A stretch of DNA of 36,209 nt, taken from positions 1 to 36,209 of the forward strand of contig JACQEN010000006.1 in the NCBI GenBank assembly GCA_016200585.1. The letters run 5' to 3'. This DNA is from Deltaproteobacteria bacterium (GTDB lineage: Bacteria > Desulfobacterota > Binatia > HRBIN30). The notes beneath the pieces are model-generated. The model had not been told where the DNA came from. It did not search any database and worked only from the letters and a program-made list of their open reading frames with translations. Position numbers and translations under genes: made by a program. Positions 14,612 through 33,847 of the stretch are shown here, in pieces; the stretch's first letter is position 1, and every line of letters starts with the position of its first letter.

Positions 14612-14684
14612 TCCCCGGTAGCTCAGTCGGTAGAGCGTTCGGCTGTTAACCGAATTGTCGCTGGTTCGAGCCCGGCCCGGGGAG
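14612..14684 (+). tRNA. tRNA-Asn (anticodon GTT)
   Basis: Acceptor tccccgg/ccgggga, D-arm agctcagtcggtagagc, anticodon arm ttcggctGTTaaccgaa, T-arm gctggttcgagcccggc, discriminator g; no encoded CCA. Confidence 0.95.
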
Positions 14685-24706: not shown

Positions 24707-27700
24707 ATGCGGGCGGACCCGAGCCCAACGACCCCCGACGCGTTCGTCGGACGGACGCGCGAGCTCGGCGAGCTGCGAGCCGGATTGCGCGGCGTTCTCG
24801 GCGGCAGCGGACGCATGTTTTTGCTGGCCGGCGATCCCGGCGTCGGCAAGACGCGACTCAGCGATGAAATCAGCCGCGATGCGCAGGCGGCCGGCGCCCA
24901 AGTTGTGTGGGGACGCTGCTGGGAAGGGGGGGCGGCCCCTCCCTATTGGCCGTGGATGCAGATCTTCCGGCGCATGGCTCGCGAAGGGCTTCTACCCGAC
25001 TCGGCACGATCCCTGATGACCGACAGCGCCCTCGTCCACTTGATGCATGAGGGCCCAGACGATGCGCTTCTGCCAGTGCATCCCCCTTCCACAGATCTGG
25101 CCGACCAACGCTTTCGATTATTTGACGCCGCCACCACCTTGCTCGAGCGTGCCGCCGAAGCCCGTCCGCTGGTCCTGATCCTCGACGATCTTCACGCCGC
25201 CGATCAAACGTCGCTGCTGTTGCTTCGCTTCACCGCCCGGGCGCTGCGCGGCAACGCTTTGCTCATCGTCGCCACCTATCGCGAAATGGAGTTGCGGCGC
25301 GTGCCCGCTCTGGGGCAGGCCGTAGCCGAGCTGGCGCGCGACGGCCGCGTCCTTACGCTGCGCGGGCTGAGCCAGCCGGAAACCGCGCAACTCATCGAGA
25401 CCATTCTCGGTCGTCTGCCGGATGAATCTCTGGTGGGCGCCCTGCATGGCGCAACCGCCGGCAATCCGTTCTTCTTGAGCGAGATCGTACGGCTGATGCA
25501 GGCCGAGGGGCGCTTCGACACGACGGACGGCAAGGCCCTGACCGCCTTTACGTTGCCCAGTCAGCTGCGTGAAGCCGTGCGCCGCCAACTTGATCTGCTA
25601 TCCCCAGCCACCGCCGAGCTCATGTCCAAAGCTTCGGTCATCGGCCAGCAGTTCTCCGTTCCCGTCCTCGCTCGGGTCGCGGCTGACAACGAAGGGGAAG
25701 CACCGGCTGCCGAAGTCGATCACAGCCGACTGATCGATCTCTTGGACGATGCTATCCACGGACGGGTGATCCGCTGCATTTCGGTGGCCGGAGCGCGTTA
25801 CGAGTTTGTCCACCAGCTGATTCGCGAAGCGCTGTATGACGCCATCGCACCTTCGATGTTGCTTACGCTGCACGGCCGCGTCGGCACGGCCCTGGAGGCA
25901 CTGTACGGCGACGCCGCGGAGCGGCCGCTGGCTGAGCTGGCGCATCACTACTTGCATTCGGGATCCATCAAAGGTCTCGAATACGCCGACCGCACCGGAG
26001 ATGATGCCCTGCAACGTCTCGCCTACGAGGAAGCGGCACGCTGGTATGAAATGGCCCTCGCGGCGCTCGATCGACTGGCGCCGGACGACACGCAGCGGAT
26101 GCTGGCTCTGCGGCTCGGCCTCGGAGACGCAAGCAAGGGTGCAGCCGACTTCGAAGGCTCGCAACGCGAGTACCGGCGTGCTGCCGAGCTGGCGCGTTCG
26201 CTGCGTCTACCGGTGGAGTTTGCCCGCGCCGTGATCGGCCTGTCGCGTCCCTGGATGCAATGGCAGCCGGACCATGTTCTCGACTCTCTCCAGGAAGAAG
26301 CTCTGCGCGGTCTCGCTCAGAAGGACAGCCGACTGCGTGTTCAACTCATGGCCTTGCGGGGAGCCAACCTGTACGCCGGCGATCGGTGTCAAGCCGTTGC
26401 GCTGATTACCGACTCCGTCGCCATGGCGCGACGCCTGCAAAACGCCCCCGGCCTCAGCCTGGCTCTGCTGCTCGAGCGTTTCCGTTTGGGCGACGAAGGA
26501 CGAATCCACGAAGCGCTGGCGATCGCCGCCGAGGCCGTGACCGCGGCGGAGCGCGCCGGTGATCGAGAGATTGCCTTCAATTTGCAAATGGAGGAGGTCA
26601 AGAATTACCTGTGGCGTGGCGACACGGTTGGCGTCGATGCCGCGACCACCCGCTGTCGCGGCCTGGCCACCCTTCTGCGCCAACCGTTCTGCTTGGGGCA
26701 AGTGTTTTGGATGGACGCCATGCGTGCGGCGCTGGAGGGGCATTTCGACGAGGCCGAGCGCTGCGCCGATCGCGCCAATGCGGAGGAGAACCGCGCCGGT
26801 GTTTCGTCGCCGGTGCTGACGATCTTCCGGACTCTGTTGCGTCGCGAAACCGGTTCCAATGATGTGCTCGATGTCGAAGCGAAGATTCCCGAAGAGATGA
26901 TCGACGTGCCGCAGGTGCGTGCCATGCTGGCGGTGCTGGCTTGCGATCGCGGCGACGCGCCGACGGCGCGTTTCCATCTCGACCGCGCTGCCGGCCGCGG
27001 CTTCGCGAGCTTGGCAAACGACTGGAACGGGTCGTGCGCCGTGGCGCAACTGGCGGAAGTCGCCGCCAGGCTGGGCGCGTCGGAACACGCCCGCAGCCTG
27101 TATGATGCGTTGAAGACGCACGCCGGCCTGGCGGTTTCGTTCAGCTACCAATTCTGCCTGGGCGCGGCCGGACGCTACTTCGGGCTGCTGGCGGCGACCT
27201 TCGGGGACTGGAACCTGGCGGCCCGACATTTCGAGGCGGCACTGGCGATGAATGCCGCGATGGGTGCAAGGCCGTGGCTGGCTCACACGCAACACGAATA
27301 CGCAGCGGCCATGGCGCGTGCGTGGGAAGCGAATCCAGCCGGCGACACGCCGCAAAGCCGAGCCAAGGCAGTCGCCCTGGCGCGAGAAGCAAACGCCACC
27401 GCGCAAACCCTGGGCATGCGGCCCCTGCTGAGCCAGACAACGGCGCTTCTCGAGCAGCTCGCCACCGTGCCGCCGCGCCGGGCGGTACAGCCCCGTGCAG
27501 TTGCAGAGTCGGGCGGTGCATTCCAACGACAAGGCGACGTCTGGAAGATCACCTACGGCGGCACGACATGCCAGCTCAAAGATATGCGCGGTCTCGCTTT
27601 CATCGTGCACCTGCTGCGCCACCCCGGCGAAGACATCCACAGTACTGCCCTGGTACGGCTGGGCGATGGCGCCGACACCCAGGCGCAAGCTGGAGCGGCG

Positions 27701-28096
27701 GCAGCGACGACAGAGATACGCACCGACCTCGGCGACGCCGGCGAAGTCCTCGATCATCAGGCACGCACGGCGTACCGCCAGCGTCTCATCGAGCTGCGCG
27801 GCGAGCTCGAACAAGCCGAGGCGTACAACGACCCTGGCCGCAGCGCCGGGCTGCGCGCCGAAATCGCCTCGCTGACCGAAGAGCTGCAGCGCGCCGTCGG
27901 CCTGGGCGGACGCCAGCGCCGCTCCGGATCGCACACCGAACGCGCCCGCGTCAACGCCACCCGGGCCATCGCCGTCGCCATCCAACGCATCGCCGAACAC
28001 AACCCGGCCCTCGCTCGCCATCTCAGCGAGCGCATCAAGACCGGTACGTTTTGCAGCTATCGCGCCAACGATGAACGCATGGACTGGAACCTGTGA
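24707..28096 (+). CDS. AAA_16-type ATPase / TPR-like regulator (1129 aa) with uncharacterised C-terminal domain
   Basis: FVGRTRELGELRAGLRGVLGGSGRMFLLAGDPGVGKTRL Walker A, LVLILDDLHAADQTSLLLL Walker B, helical-repeat middle; C-terminal domain about 27512-28093. Confidence 0.9.
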   Translation: MRADPSPTTPDAFVGRTRELGELRAGLRGVLGGSGRMFLLAGDPGVGKTRLSDEISRDAQAAGAQVVWGRCWEGGAAPPYWPWMQIFRRMAREGLLPDSARSLMTDSALVHLMHEGPDDALLPVHPPSTDLADQRFRLFDAATTLLERAAEARPLVLILDDLHAADQTSLLLLRFTARALRGNALLIVATYREMELRRVPALGQAVAELARDGRVLTLRGLSQPETAQLIETILGRLPDESLVGALHGATAGNPFFLSEIVRLMQAEGRFDTTDGKALTAFTLPSQLREAVRRQLDLLSPATAELMSKASVIGQQFSVPVLARVAADNEGEAPAAEVDHSRLIDLLDDAIHGRVIRCISVAGARYEFVHQLIREALYDAIAPSMLLTLHGRVGTALEALYGDAAERPLAELAHHYLHSGSIKGLEYADRTGDDALQRLAYEEAARWYEMALAALDRLAPDDTQRMLALRLGLGDASKGAADFEGSQREYRRAAELARSLRLPVEFARAVIGLSRPWMQWQPDHVLDSLQEEALRGLAQKDSRLRVQLMALRGANLYAGDRCQAVALITDSVAMARRLQNAPGLSLALLLERFRLGDEGRIHEALAIAAEAVTAAERAGDREIAFNLQMEEVKNYLWRGDTVGVDAATTRCRGLATLLRQPFCLGQVFWMDAMRAALEGHFDEAERCADRANAEENRAGVSSPVLTIFRTLLRRETGSNDVLDVEAKIPEEMIDVPQVRAMLAVLACDRGDAPTARFHLDRAAGRGFASLANDWNGSCAVAQLAEVAARLGASEHARSLYDALKTHAGLAVSFSYQFCLGAAGRYFGLLAATFGDWNLAARHFEAALAMNAAMGARPWLAHTQHEYAAAMARAWEANPAGDTPQSRAKAVALAREANATAQTLGMRPLLSQTTALLEQLATVPPRRAVQPRAVAESGGAFQRQGDVWKITYGGTTCQLKDMRGLAFIVHLLRHPGEDIHSTALVRLGDGADTQAQAGAAAATTEIRTDLGDAGEVLDHQARTAYRQRLIELRGELEQAEAYNDPGRSAGLRAEIASLTEELQRAVGLGGRQRRSGSHTERARVNATRAIAVAIQRIAEHNPALARHLSERIKTGTFCSYRANDERMDWNL

Positions 28097-28159
28097 AGAA
28101 GGAGCGGCTGGCATTCTTGCTGACGAACGCGACCTAGGCTCGTAAAAAAGGGGGTTTGC

Positions 28160-30391
28160 ATGGGGTGGTACAAGAGAACGCAAATCGCAACGGCAGCCGT
28201 GGTGATCTTGACGATGCTGCTTCCCGCTGCCGTTGTGGCTGACGACGACGAACCGGACTCCGGCGAGGCAACCAAGAAGGAACGCAGAGAACAGGCCTCG
28301 AAGGACAAGCCAGCGCTGCTCCTCGAGCCGATCGTGGTCGTAGGCAAGCGCGACAACTCATACCTCTTCAGCGCTCCCACCTCGGCGTCGCGAATTCCCC
28401 TCGACGTCATGGACACGCCGCGCTCCGTGCAGGTCGTTCCGCGCGCCGTGATCGACGATCAGCAGGCGATCACGCCCAACGAGATCACACGTTCCGTGAG
28501 CTCCGTTCGCCCGTCCGGCGCCTGGTACGGCAACGACGAGGCGTTCATCACGCGCGGCTTCTTGCAGCAGAACGTGTACAAGGATGGTCTGCGCGGTGCG
28601 GCCATCGTCGGCTTCATCGATCAACCCGCCGCCGGCGACGTCGCTGAGCTCGACCGCGTCGAGGTCATCAAGGGCCCGGCCTCGTTTCTTTTCGGACGCG
28701 TCGAGCCTGGCGGCATCGTCAACTACATCACCAAGCAACCCTCCTTCAGCCCGGCCTACTCGCTGATGCAACGCTTCGGAAGCTACGACCTCTATCGCAC
28801 CGAAGCCGATCTCACCGGACCGGTCACCGACAATCTGGCGTATCGCCTCATCGGTTCCTACCAGCGCGGCGGCCTCTTCGAACGCTTCACCGAGGAAGAG
28901 CGTGGCTTCGGATCGGCGAGTGCGCTGTGGCGGCCGAACGACTCGACCCAGGTGCGGCTGCGTACCAGCTTTGCGTACGACGATTCCGTCTTCGCTGCGG
29001 GCTTGCCGATCGTCGATGGACGGCTTCTCGATGGCGTCGCCTACAACCAGTTTCTCGGCGAGCCATCGGTGAACAAGCGCATCTCGAGAGCGTTGGAGAC
29101 CTACGTGGAAGCCGTCCACCGGGTCAACGAATCGTTGCAACTCACGCTTCTCGGCGGCTACCAACCGGCCTGGCTGATCAACCGCGACCTCGAGCTCGGC
29201 GAGTTTCTGGTACCGGATCAAATCCCGTACTACGACCCCGACAGTCGAACCTTGGCGCGAACGCTGTACGACAGCAACTTCAAAACCCAGGACGCGCAGC
29301 TGGAGCTCGGGGCAAACCTCTCCTACGCGCCGGCGGATCTCGGTCTCGGCTGGCTGCGCGATGTACGTGGCAACCTCGTCGCCACAGCCGGCTGGGAAAG
29401 AAATGAGGCTCACGGTCCGCTGACCTTCGGTACGTCGAGCCGCGTCAACCCATTCACTCCGGTCTACCAGGGCTACTTTCTGAGCGAGGATATCCATGTG
29501 CACCAGGACCTCCACGGTGCGGCGAACGAAGTCAGCGGCGGGATCGAGAATAGCTTGCGCTGGCGCGACCGCGTCGAGCTGCTGGCCGGCGTGCGCGTCA
29601 GCTACGTCGACAGTCACGCCGCCTTCGATCTCGTGCCGGCTGAATTCTCGGAGCACGGCGGGTTTCACGAAACACGGCCGGTACCGTTCGTCGGCGCCTT
29701 GGTCCGGCCGCTGCGGCCGCTTTCTCTCTACACCAGCTACAGCGAGTCGTACTTGCCCTACCGGTTTCCTCGGCTCACGGCGCACGGCGGGCCGCTGCAG
29801 CCGGAGACCGGCTCGCAGATCGAGGGTGGGGTGCGTTGGGAGTCGTTCGATAGCCGTCTCCTGGCGACGGCCGCGATCTACCAGATCGACAAGGACCATC
29901 TCATCGCACCGGACCCGCAGGACCCGATCCATCTCGCCAACATCGGATCGGCGCGCAGCCGCGGCTTCGAGCTCGACGTCGCAGGAAGCCCGCTCCCTGG
30001 TTGGGATCTCATCGGCAGTTACGCCTACACCGACGCACGCATCACCGACTCGCCGGACGGCACGCAGGGCAACCGTCTGTTCGCCGTGCCCTACAACAGC
30101 GGCAGCCTATGGACGACCTACGAGCTGCAAACCGAGCCGCTGCGCGGCCTGGGCGCCGGCATCGGCGTGTTCTTCTCCGACTCCGTCGAGAACGACACAC
30201 TCAACAGCGCCAAGCTGCCGAGCTGGGTGCAAGCCGATGCGGCGCTCTTCTACGCGCACGAAAAGTTCGAGGCGCGCTTGAACTTGAAGAACTTCACCGA
30301 CGAGAAGGTGTTCCTGTCGCAGAACGATAGCTTCAGAGCTATCCCCGCGCCGCCGCTGACCGTGCTCGGCAGCATTTCCGTACACTTCTAA
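28160..30391 (+). CDS. TonB-dependent outer-membrane receptor (siderophore-receptor-like)
   Basis: EPIVVVGKRDNSYLFSAPTSASRIPLDVMDTPRSVQVVPRAVIDDQQAITPNEITRSVSSVRPSG...FITRGFLQQNVYKDGLRG...VEVIKGPASFLFGRVEPGGIVNYITKQP plug; C-terminal beta strand LTVLGSISVHF. Confidence 0.95.
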   Translation: MGWYKRTQIATAAVVILTMLLPAAVVADDDEPDSGEATKKERREQASKDKPALLLEPIVVVGKRDNSYLFSAPTSASRIPLDVMDTPRSVQVVPRAVIDDQQAITPNEITRSVSSVRPSGAWYGNDEAFITRGFLQQNVYKDGLRGAAIVGFIDQPAAGDVAELDRVEVIKGPASFLFGRVEPGGIVNYITKQPSFSPAYSLMQRFGSYDLYRTEADLTGPVTDNLAYRLIGSYQRGGLFERFTEEERGFGSASALWRPNDSTQVRLRTSFAYDDSVFAAGLPIVDGRLLDGVAYNQFLGEPSVNKRISRALETYVEAVHRVNESLQLTLLGGYQPAWLINRDLELGEFLVPDQIPYYDPDSRTLARTLYDSNFKTQDAQLELGANLSYAPADLGLGWLRDVRGNLVATAGWERNEAHGPLTFGTSSRVNPFTPVYQGYFLSEDIHVHQDLHGAANEVSGGIENSLRWRDRVELLAGVRVSYVDSHAAFDLVPAEFSEHGGFHETRPVPFVGALVRPLRPLSLYTSYSESYLPYRFPRLTAHGGPLQPETGSQIEGGVRWESFDSRLLATAAIYQIDKDHLIAPDPQDPIHLANIGSARSRGFELDVAGSPLPGWDLIGSYAYTDARITDSPDGTQGNRLFAVPYNSGSLWTTYELQTEPLRGLGAGIGVFFSDSVENDTLNSAKLPSWVQADAALFYAHEKFEARLNLKNFTDEKVFLSQNDSFRAIPAPPLTVLGSISVHF

Positions 30392-30472
30392 GCGCCGGAC
30401 GCGACTTGGCGGTACATCCGGCGTGCCGGATTCGGCCGCCGAGCAGCCAAAACTCACACACCAACCATCCGT

Positions 30473-30503
30473 ACTGAACAACTGTTCAGCGCCGGGTTAC
30501 GCC
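30473..30503 (+). repeat. 31-nt repeat copy 1, contains dyad TGAACA-AC-TGTTCA
   Basis: actgaacaactgttcagcgccgggttacgcc; 27/31 identical to 31040-31070. Confidence 0.85.
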
Positions 30504-30598
30504 TCTCGATAAAGGCGCGCCGGGGGCATGGGCGATGTCGCTGGCCCTGTTGGTCGGCGATGTTGCCCGGCGCAGCCGAATCCCAAGAGGAGGCACAG

Positions 30599-31021
30599 TT
30601 GACTGCCAGTATTTGCGCCGCATCCACGCCCGCTCCACGTGCCGAGTCGATGGCCGCCCTTACTCCAGCTCCTCGTTCCAAGCAAATCTTCCGCCGCGAG
30701 GGCGAGTACTGGACCGTCGCCTTCGACGGCGCCCTCTGCCGCCTCAAGCATACGCGCGGCATGCAACACATGGCGAGATTGCTCAGCCGGCCCGGCGAAC
30801 GCATCGCCGCCGTGGCGCTTGTCTCGCAAGGTACATCGCCTGACGACGAAGCCGCTGCGGAACGGGCTCGGGTCAACGTCACGCGGCAGATCAGCGCGGT
30901 CTTGAAACGTATCGCCGCCTACCACCCGGCCCTCGCCGAACACCTCGCGTCGACCGTGCACACCGGCTTGTCCTGCTCCTACACGCCGGACTCGCGCCTG
31001 CCGACGCGCTGGGAGATCTGA
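30599..31021 (+). CDS. Small stand-alone protein homologous to C-terminal domain of the 24707..28096 regulator
   Basis: TTG start at 30599 behind agaggagg; IFRREGEYWTVAFDGALCRLKHTRGMQHMARLLSRPGERIAAVALVSQG...ERARVNVTRQISAVLKRIAAYHPALAEHLASTVHTGLSCSYTPD. Confidence 0.82.
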   Translation: MTASICAASTPAPRAESMAALTPAPRSKQIFRREGEYWTVAFDGALCRLKHTRGMQHMARLLSRPGERIAAVALVSQGTSPDDEAAAERARVNVTRQISAVLKRIAAYHPALAEHLASTVHTGLSCSYTPDSRLPTRWEI

Positions 31022-31039: not shown

Positions 31040-31070
31040 ACTGAACAACTGTTCCACGCAGAGTTACGCC
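31040..31070 (+). repeat. 31-nt repeat copy 2
   Basis: actgaacaactgttccacgcagagttacgcc, direct orientation relative to copy 1. Confidence 0.85.
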
Positions 31071-31167: not shown

Positions 31168-31896
31168 ATGAGAAGATCAAGTCTCAGTGTGGCGGCGGGA
31201 GTCACTCTGCTGTGGGCGGGGACGGCTCTGGGGACGCCAACGCCGCAGCAGAGCTGCGACTACGCCCGCATCACGGCGTGGAAGGTGTACCAGTCGTGCG
31301 TCGATGCGGTCGTCGCGAAGGACGCCAAAGGAATCGCTTTCGATTCATGGAAGGCCTTTTGGAAGTGCCGGCATGCCTATTTCAAGAAGTGGACGGCATT
31401 CCAGTCCAAAGCGTCACTCGCCGGCAGCACGTGCGTCGGCGCCCGATTCTCTGACGCCAGTTTTGTCGTCATCGACAATCTGACCGGGCTCTATTGGGAA
31501 AAGAAGTCGGACGACAGCTCTGTGTCGGACAAGGACAATCAATACAGCTGGGGCAGCGGCGGGTTTTCCACCGGAGGTGCCTTCACGACGTTTGTACATT
31601 TCCTGAACAATGGCAACCCCTTGGTCAACGATTGGCGGCTGCCGACCCTCGCCGAGTTGCAAACCCTCCTGCTCGACTACCCGTGTACGGGCGGCGGCGG
31701 CGGCACGGGATGTGAGTGCACAGGACCGTGCGTCGATCCTTTGTTCAACAACACGCAGTCTAGCTACTACTGGTCGGATACGCGGTACGTTCCCGACGGA
31801 GGCCGCGCTTGGGTCGTGTCTTTCGGCACTGGTCTCGTCATTCCTTTCATCCAGACCGACACCGACTACGTGCGGGCCGTCACCGCCGGCTTTTGA
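31168..31896 (+). CDS. Secreted DUF1566 (Lcl C-terminal-like) domain protein
   Basis: Signal peptide; LTGLYWEKKSDDSSVSDKDNQYSWGSG...NDWRLPTLAELQTLL...SSYYWSDTRYVPDGGRAWVVSFGTGLVIPFIQTDTDYVRAVTAGF; RBS aaaggagg. Confidence 0.88.
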   Translation: MRRSSLSVAAGVTLLWAGTALGTPTPQQSCDYARITAWKVYQSCVDAVVAKDAKGIAFDSWKAFWKCRHAYFKKWTAFQSKASLAGSTCVGARFSDASFVVIDNLTGLYWEKKSDDSSVSDKDNQYSWGSGGFSTGGAFTTFVHFLNNGNPLVNDWRLPTLAELQTLLLDYPCTGGGGGTGCECTGPCVDPLFNNTQSSYYWSDTRYVPDGGRAWVVSFGTGLVIPFIQTDTDYVRAVTAGF

Positions 31897-31954: not shown

Positions 31955-33847
31955 ATGAAATCGTTGACATCGATCGCAATTGCCAGCCTCCTGGCTGGTG
32001 CACTGGTTCCGCGAAACGCCGATGCAGTGACCGCCACATTGGTCGGCGACACCTTCACCATCTACTCGAGCCCGAATGCGAACAAGGGTAAGGTCGCCAC
32101 ACTCGAGGTCGCCGGCCCGCCGGCGCTGAGGAATACATACGTCAAGTTTGACCTCAATCCCTTGCCCGCCGGCATCACGGGAAGCGACGTGGCGAAAGCC
32201 ACGCTGACGCTGTTCGCCAACAAGGTGATTACAGGCGGGTCGTTCGACGTGCTGCAGCTGACCAGCGGCTGGGACGAGCTCTTGGTGACGTGGGACAACG
32301 GTCCGCTCTTGGGCACGACTGTGAGCTCGGTCGCCATCGACCTCGCCGACAAGAACACATTCAAGGCCTTCGACGTGACCGCTGCCGTCAAGGCCTGGGT
32401 CGACGCTCCGCTGACTAACAACGGCTTGTTACTGGTGGATTTGTTTGATGGCCTGAATGTCAAGTTTGATAGCAAGGAGAACGGTTCAAAGAGCCATCCG
32501 CCGCAGTTGGAAATCACCCTGGCGGCAACCTCGGCGACGATCGTCGATGGGTCGGTGGGCAATGCCGACCTGGCGAACAATGCTGTGACCAGCGCCAAGA
32601 TCGCCGATGCCTCGGTGGGCAATGCTGATCTCGGCGGGGACGCGGTCACCAGCAACAAGATCCTCGACGGCTCGATCACCGGCGCTGACGTCGCCGACGG
32701 CTCGTTGCGCAACGCGGACATCAACTTCAGCCCGCTCACCGCAGGCCAATACAACACCGGCGTTGGCGAGTCTGCCCTTCAATCTATAGGGAGTGGCATC
32801 GGATCGTCCAACACGGCCACGGGCTACCACGCGCTGACCTCCACCATAAACGGCTTTTTCAATACAGCCACGGGAGCCAGAGCACTGGCTTCCAACATTT
32901 ATGGCACTTCTAACACAGCCACAGGCGCTGATGCACTTGGTCTCAATGACGGGGGCGACGACAACACGGCCGTAGGAAACGCGGCGTTGGGAGGTAATGT
33001 TGTAGGCTCCGCCAACACGGCCATTGGTCGCAGTGCGCTGGAGAATAATAGCACCTCCTACAACACCGCGGTCGGTTTCAACGCACTAACTTCAAGTACA
33101 TCCGGCGGCGAGAATATTGCCGTCGGTGCGAACGCTACCGATGCCCTCACCACCGGCTCCAACAATACGGCTATCGGCACAGGGGCCTTTGGCAATCTCA
33201 CGGCCGGCACGGGCAACATCGCCGTCGGTTGGCATGGCGGGCTGTCGGCGACCACCAACGACAACGACATCTACATCGGCAGCACGGGCGCTGCCGCGGA
33301 GAACAACACGATTCGCATAGGCAACACCTCGCACACCAAGACCTTCATCCGCGGTATCTACGGCCAGACCACCGCGAACACCGCCATTCCTGTGCTTGTC
33401 GATAGTTTCACCGGCCAGCTCGGCACCGTCTCTTCGTCGCGCCGCTTCAAGATCGATATCCACGACATGAAACAGGCCAGCAGCGCGCTGCTGAAGCTGC
33501 GACCGGTGACCTTCAAGTACAAGCCCAACCTCGACCCGTCCGGCACCACGCAATACGGGCTCATCGCCGAGGAGGTCGAGCAAGTCATGCCCGACCTCGT
33601 GGTCTACGACAAGGACGGCAAGCCGGAGACCGTGAAGTATCACATCCTCGCCTCGCTGCTGCTCAACGAGCTGCAGAAGCAGTACCGCACGCAGCAAGCG
33701 CAGCAGAAGACTTTGGCCGCGCAGCAAGCAGAGCTGCGCTCGGTGCACGCCGAGAACACAGCTTTGCGTGCAGCGGTCGACGAGATCCAGGTCTTGAAAG
33801 CTCGCCTGGCGGCCTTGGAGGCGGGATCGGTGGTGGCGGCGAAGTAG
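31955..33847 (+). CDS. Secreted DNRLRE-like / head-repeat / S74 intramolecular-chaperone protein
   Basis: Signal peptide MKSLTSIAIASLLAGALVPRNADA; N-terminal DNRLRE-like domain; NADLANNAVTSAKIADASVGNADLGG repeats; NTATGxxAL repeats; C-terminal SSSRRFKIDIHDM...LLKLRPVTFKYKPN...QYGLIAEEVEQVMPDLVVYDKDGKPETVKYHILASLLLNELQKQ and coiled coil. Confidence 0.85.
   Translation: MKSLTSIAIASLLAGALVPRNADAVTATLVGDTFTIYSSPNANKGKVATLEVAGPPALRNTYVKFDLNPLPAGITGSDVAKATLTLFANKVITGGSFDVLQLTSGWDELLVTWDNGPLLGTTVSSVAIDLADKNTFKAFDVTAAVKAWVDAPLTNNGLLLVDLFDGLNVKFDSKENGSKSHPPQLEITLAATSATIVDGSVGNADLANNAVTSAKIADASVGNADLGGDAVTSNKILDGSITGADVADGSLRNADINFSPLTAGQYNTGVGESALQSIGSGIGSSNTATGYHALTSTINGFFNTATGARALASNIYGTSNTATGADALGLNDGGDDNTAVGNAALGGNVVGSANTAIGRSALENNSTSYNTAVGFNALTSSTSGGENIAVGANATDALTTGSNNTAIGTGAFGNLTAGTGNIAVGWHGGLSATTNDNDIYIGSTGAAAENNTIRIGNTSHTKTFIRGIYGQTTANTAIPVLVDSFTGQLGTVSSSRRFKIDIHDMKQASSALLKLRPVTFKYKPNLDPSGTTQYGLIAEEVEQVMPDLVVYDKDGKPETVKYHILASLLLNELQKQYRTQQAQQKTLAAQQAELRSVHAENTALRAAVDEIQVLKARLAALEAGSVVAAK

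Follow-up and report, generated by a model that had tools for sequence, protein, structure and literature searches.

An unnamed winged-helix-like domain shared by a STAND-like ATPase and a small free-standing protein in a probable Binatota genome

Related regulators and the layout of the locus

DNA-binding domains of the OmpR/PhoB class (PF00486, Trans_reg_C, present also in SARP/AfsR proteins and EmbR) are built from a three-stranded sheet, helix 1, a short strand, helix 2, a long helix 3 and a wing. The domain described here resembles them in the predicted order of its elements, in its basic helix 3, in the G at the wing and in its placement behind receivers. It differs from them in having its own motifs (REGEYWT, RDxKGLxYLAxLL, ERARxxVTxxI and TGxFCxY), an additional helix, a helix 3 of greater length and, in its long form, a hairpin inserted between helices 2 and 3.

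The other systems of interest are the MalT-type STAND regulators. The C-terminus of MalT is a LuxR/GerE helix-turn-helix. Regulators of this type combine AAA_16, a TPR sensor and a DNA-binding domain, and STAND proteins are resting ADP-bound monomers, which multimerise on encountering the inducer (PMC6468293). The ATPase encoded in the window (the whole stretch of 36,209 nucleotides that was analysed) shares with them AAA_16 with Walker A and B motifs and a C-terminal, putative output domain, and some of its relatives match TPR_MalT; unlike MalT, it ends in an unnamed domain that does not align with GerE. It also resembles the TOMM kinase/cyclase fusion TIGR03903 in AAA_16 and the region following it (131.8 bits over aa 13-464), but this score is far under the cut-off of 705.75 and the window protein has no kinase or cyclase part. 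The features of the locus are as follows.

24707..28096, + strand: STAND-like regulator, 1129 aa (Pfam AAA_16 5e-26), consisting of an AAA_16 NTPase (aa 13-187), a TPR-like middle and an unnamed C-terminal domain
27512..28072, + strand: the C-terminal domain, long form, aa 936-1122 (own HMM 230 bits; AlphaFold core pLDDT 96-98)
27755..27895, + strand: predicted two-helix hairpin insert (model helices 86-108 and 112-132), which parts predicted helices 2 and 3 of the winged helix and is found in none of the short forms
28160..30391, + strand: TonB-dependent siderophore-type receptor, 743 aa (TIGR01783 3.9e-79, above cut-off)
30475..30503, + strand: repeat copy 1, TGAACAACTGTTCnnCGCnnnGTTACGCC, 29 bp, 95 bp before TTG 30599
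30599..31021, + strand: free short-form domain protein, about 140 aa, TTG start after AGAGGAGG; a longer ORF runs from ATG 30560
30848..30922, + strand: predicted recognition helix of the free form (model helix 97-121), its basic residues kept in the family (conservation in 102 sequences)
31042..31070, + strand: repeat copy 2, 97 bp before ATG 31168
31168..31896, + strand: exported Lcl_C-domain protein, 242 aa, with a signal-peptide-like start (Pfam Lcl_C 1.8e-17); AAAGGAGG before the ATG
31955..33847, + strand: exported fibre-like protein, 630 aa, with CBM96 (2.6e-18), YadA-head-like repeats and Peptidase_S74 (1.6e-12)

The ATPase has the AAA_16 NTPase with Walker A (GDPGVGKT, 24830-24853) and Walker B (LVLILDD, from 25169) that marks the STAND/MalT type. 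The window protein itself matched no TPR model; shorter domain-bearing relatives do match such models. The preliminary description of this DNA was right in starting the C-terminal domain at 27512 and in placing all three genes on the plus strand with the TonB receptor, which starts 63 bp after the ATPase, between the two domain copies. The Lcl_C and S74 genes, which are on the same strand, were not mentioned in it. For the free gene the TTG at 30599, given also in that description, is the most likely start, because AGAGGAGG directly precedes it. The ATG of the S74 gene at 31955 is preceded by AAAGGAG, and the longest ORF starts at 31610.

The shared domain and its two forms

The alignment by eye of the ATPase C-terminus with the small protein, from which the preliminary description started, was borne out: both conserved halves align (blastp E 2e-12 and 2e-11), and Smith-Waterman scores of 153-158 compare with 40 +/- 5, maximum 70, in 1000 shuffles. 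The likeness is real and beyond chance. So is the gap in the small protein, the domain spanning 187 aa in the long and 105 aa in the short form, and the segment without counterpart in the short form corresponds in the models to the predicted helical hairpin and its linkers. Split forms of the domain recur at other loci, again as had been proposed. No Pfam or NCBIfam model matched the part shared by the two window proteins above its curated cut-off, and a literature search found no published description of the domain. Naming it would make many such proteins recognisable as transcription regulators, and would provide a handle on surface-protein control in uncultured Binatota.

The domain was present in 27 of the 58 genomes searched as relatives, many of them with several matches. 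The named records come from Candidatus Binatota, where several copies per genome occur, from MAGs called Deltaproteobacteria, and from Actinomycetota, Chloroflexota and Dormiibacterota, and the matches in Candidatus Binataceae make an origin of the window in Binatota probable; annotated plasmid relatives bear the names 'AAA family ATPase' or 'hypothetical protein'. The genome that contains the window has at least six domain genes: ATPases on contigs C108, C197 and C216, a fusion to a GAF-like part on C258, and free short forms on C108 and C258. An alignment used as query retrieved 40 loci, a single-sequence contig scan with the short window protein none. When 395 genomes of the phylum were searched at E 1e-14, the short form turned up in its own genome only, but this cut-off is too strict to gauge spread. 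Neither a viral fold library nor phage records contributed anything of use.

Across the family the long form measures about 165-200 aa and the short form about 105 aa. The AlphaFold model of the long form, made with 102 sequences, contains three strands, helices 30-40 and 48-64, the hairpin (86-108/112-132), helices 145-167 and 169-178 and a C-terminal strand; the short-form model has the same order of elements with the hairpin missing. In a tree of the 102 sequences, built with the insert columns left out and thus based on about 116 columns with many forks open, the short forms were scattered, requiring eight changes, at least four of them forced by supported branches. A single clade for the short forms was rejected (p 0.0001), so the hairpin has come or gone repeatedly. 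The tree test also rejected the window pair as a split or local duplication of each other (AU p=0.021); the two window copies do not pair on the tree, so the free protein did not arise by local duplication of the ATPase tail. One locus (L048, G018:C20:1-20000) carries four domain genes in 20 kb, two of them with near-identical domains, and a short-form ATPase there groups with a long form on the tree.

What kind of fold this is had been guessed from the sequence layout as a winged-helix or output domain, and several observations point the same way. With the short-form model as Foldseek query, the majority of the top 50 PDB matches were OmpR/PhoB-class DNA-binding domains (GlnR, ArlR, OmpR, PhoB, KdpE, AfsR and EmbR), with a best E of 0.056 and no fold match below 0.05. 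The top two fold matches of the long form were, weakly, AfsR and CosR, in a search which, like the PDB profile search, was swamped by coiled-coil matches. By hhalign the domain was collinear, from one end of the fold to the other, with 32 local Trans_reg_C sequences (P 7e-4, probability 26%). With GerE there was no alignment (P 0.085-0.38) and no Pfam GerE match, PF00486 did not match either window protein up to E 1, and no sequence search alone connected the domain to a known wHTH family. Helix 3 is conserved as a basic helix in the 102 sequences, with R148, R150 (100%), K/R155, K/R158 and K/R163, and the wing carries K/R180-T-G. The domain is also found where an output domain would be expected: it is preceded by Response_reg (E 2e-31) in L096 and L097, by TPRs in L074 and L118, by an alpha/beta hydrolase in L144, by a GAF-like part in L012 and by a cyclase-AAA_16 part in L044. 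This fusion pattern matches the distribution of output domains. Because the fold matches, the profile alignment, the fusions and the conserved basic positions combine, a DNA-binding winged helix is the best reading of the shared domain; each line being moderate, we consider it very likely on all of them taken together. Most likely, the domain is an unnamed branch of OmpR/PhoB-like winged helices with an optional two-helix hairpin between helices 2 and 3.

Two side observations concern the surroundings of such genes. The receiver fusion of the long form at L096:4637-10274 belongs to a cluster in which there are other receiver-like genes and a gene of the MMPL family, and in L043 and at G013:C50:20043-20198 a free short form adjoins a gene with a GerE domain.

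Exported proteins encoded next to domain genes

Half of the same-strand genes downstream of domain genes (29/58) look exported, compared with 85/382 of the other genes in the loci (Fisher p=2e-5), as judged by a home-made signal-peptide heuristic, the same for cases and controls, in loci which, coming partly from related species, are not fully independent. Among the upstream neighbours 18/90 look exported. The downstream products include S74 fibres, Lcl_C proteins, BNR propellers and, recognised by eye, beta-helix proteins and EF-hand/dockerin-like repeats. In L044, L045, L046, L047 and L050 the free short form is followed by an exported repeat, lectin or propeller protein, and the free gene overlaps the start of the next gene in L044, L045 and L047; in L043 and L093 no exported gene lies directly behind the free form. 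As a control we took 38 large Trans_reg_C-AAA regulators, for which 4/12 co-directional next genes were exported, a proportion indistinguishable from 50% and a count too small to call the trend special to the domain. Seen from the other side, 9/11 S74 genes and about 20 further Lcl_C loci that were fetched had no domain gene adjoining, nor were hidden ones found when checked for.

The S74 protein of the window has a homologue in L047, where its gene comes directly behind that of a short form. Exported proteins of a fibre-like design, in which a CBM96-like part is combined with many NTAVG-type (YadA-head-like) repeats and, at the C-terminus, a Peptidase_S74 chaperone, are encoded at 31955-33847 in the window, in L047:249-2876 and in L157:1574-3841; S74 genes numbered 11 in 19 genomes.

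The repeat, a possible circuit and its alternatives

The preliminary description had named three stretches as candidate DNA-binding sites. Two of them, 30473-30503 and 31040-31070, turned out to be two copies of one repeat, the third, 28097-28160, contains no copy of it. The window has TGAACAACTGTTCnnCGCnnnGTTACGCC in two places, and none of 100 shuffles produced it. Its 13-bp core is found exactly at only these two places in the 5.62 Mb assembly, which contains three further sites with one mismatch; a reversed control pattern gave two matches. The repeat overlaps the inverted repeat CTGAACA-AC-TGTTCAG, and is also readable as two direct 8-mers, ACTGAACA and ACTGTTCA. Direct-repeat half-sites can be bound by OmpR-class proteins, KdpE being an example (PMC3264566). 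Both start codons behind the copies have strong ribosome sites. No counterpart indicating a family-wide operator repeat was found in 44 other domain-gene pairs, and repeats about as good occurred in 1-2/80 control pairs. No sigma-70 promoter was recognised by consensus, and Rfam detected only a tRNA at 14612.

We propose that the free short form, which lacks the hairpin, regulates transcription locally. It would bind both repeat copies, the one upstream of its own gene and the one upstream of the Lcl_C and S74 genes, and would thereby control, by activation or by repression, itself and this surface-protein unit. Taken as a whole this proposal seems reasonably likely. The ATPase would most likely be the inducible partner, its C-terminal domain serving as the output of a STAND-type regulator. 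By analogy with MalT it would rest in a closed, ADP-bound form and be opened and multimerised by an inducer acting on the TPR part, and its probable targets would be the genes of this cluster, among them that of the TonB receptor, which begins 63 bp downstream. As the repeat lies on both sides of the free gene, two short DNA fragments and one small protein would be enough to test the proposal directly.

The free domain could instead be a partner or decoy that does not bind DNA, pairing with the C-terminal domain or the hairpin of the ATPase and so tuning it. The hairpin is an obvious interaction surface, and five loci (the window, L012, L044, L047 and L050) have a free short form and a long form less than 4 kb apart. 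We nevertheless regard this as unlikely: the short form retains the basic residues of the recognition helix and the wing, for several free short forms the locus that was fetched contains no long form (though some of these are at contig ends), and the tree does not pair the short form of the window with the long one. Local regulation through the repeat also competes with the view that the direct repeats are the ends of a small inserted cassette carrying the short gene, the gene order being an accident of insertion. It is true that they flank exactly one gene and that other short genes have no equivalent repeat; but both copies include an inverted repeat and stand at nearly equal distances (95 and 97 bp) upstream of start codons that have strong ribosome sites, and no mobile-element gene was found among the neighbouring genes scanned, which makes a cassette quite improbable.

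The idea that fared worst is that of the preliminary description itself, in which the ATPase and the free domain jointly control the TonB receptor. The receptor gene, 63 bp after that of the ATPase, may share its transcript, but no repeat copy precedes it, and as a conserved theme receptor control is unsupported: just one of the 36 genes directly downstream of domain genes encodes a TonB receptor, namely the window's own, none was found beside the other domain genes scanned, and L044 and L047 have the free domain immediately behind the ATPase, without an intervening receptor. We consider a receptor module very improbable.

Returning to the free form as a local regulator, one may speculate further that the hairpin serves as a control element that can be removed. 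Forms that have it and are linked to the ATPase would be inducible and free forms lacking it autonomous, both would read the same operators and together set the expression of surface fibres and lectins, and it would be to this end that the hairpin was repeatedly lost or gained. This extension is tentative, and we consider it unlikely to hold.

Another arrangement of the two forms was seen in the same genome. At L012 (G000:C258) the GAF-like fusion of the long form is divergent from a free short form, and the pair is flanked by genes for exported DUF2961, DUF1554 and two beta-helix-like proteins.
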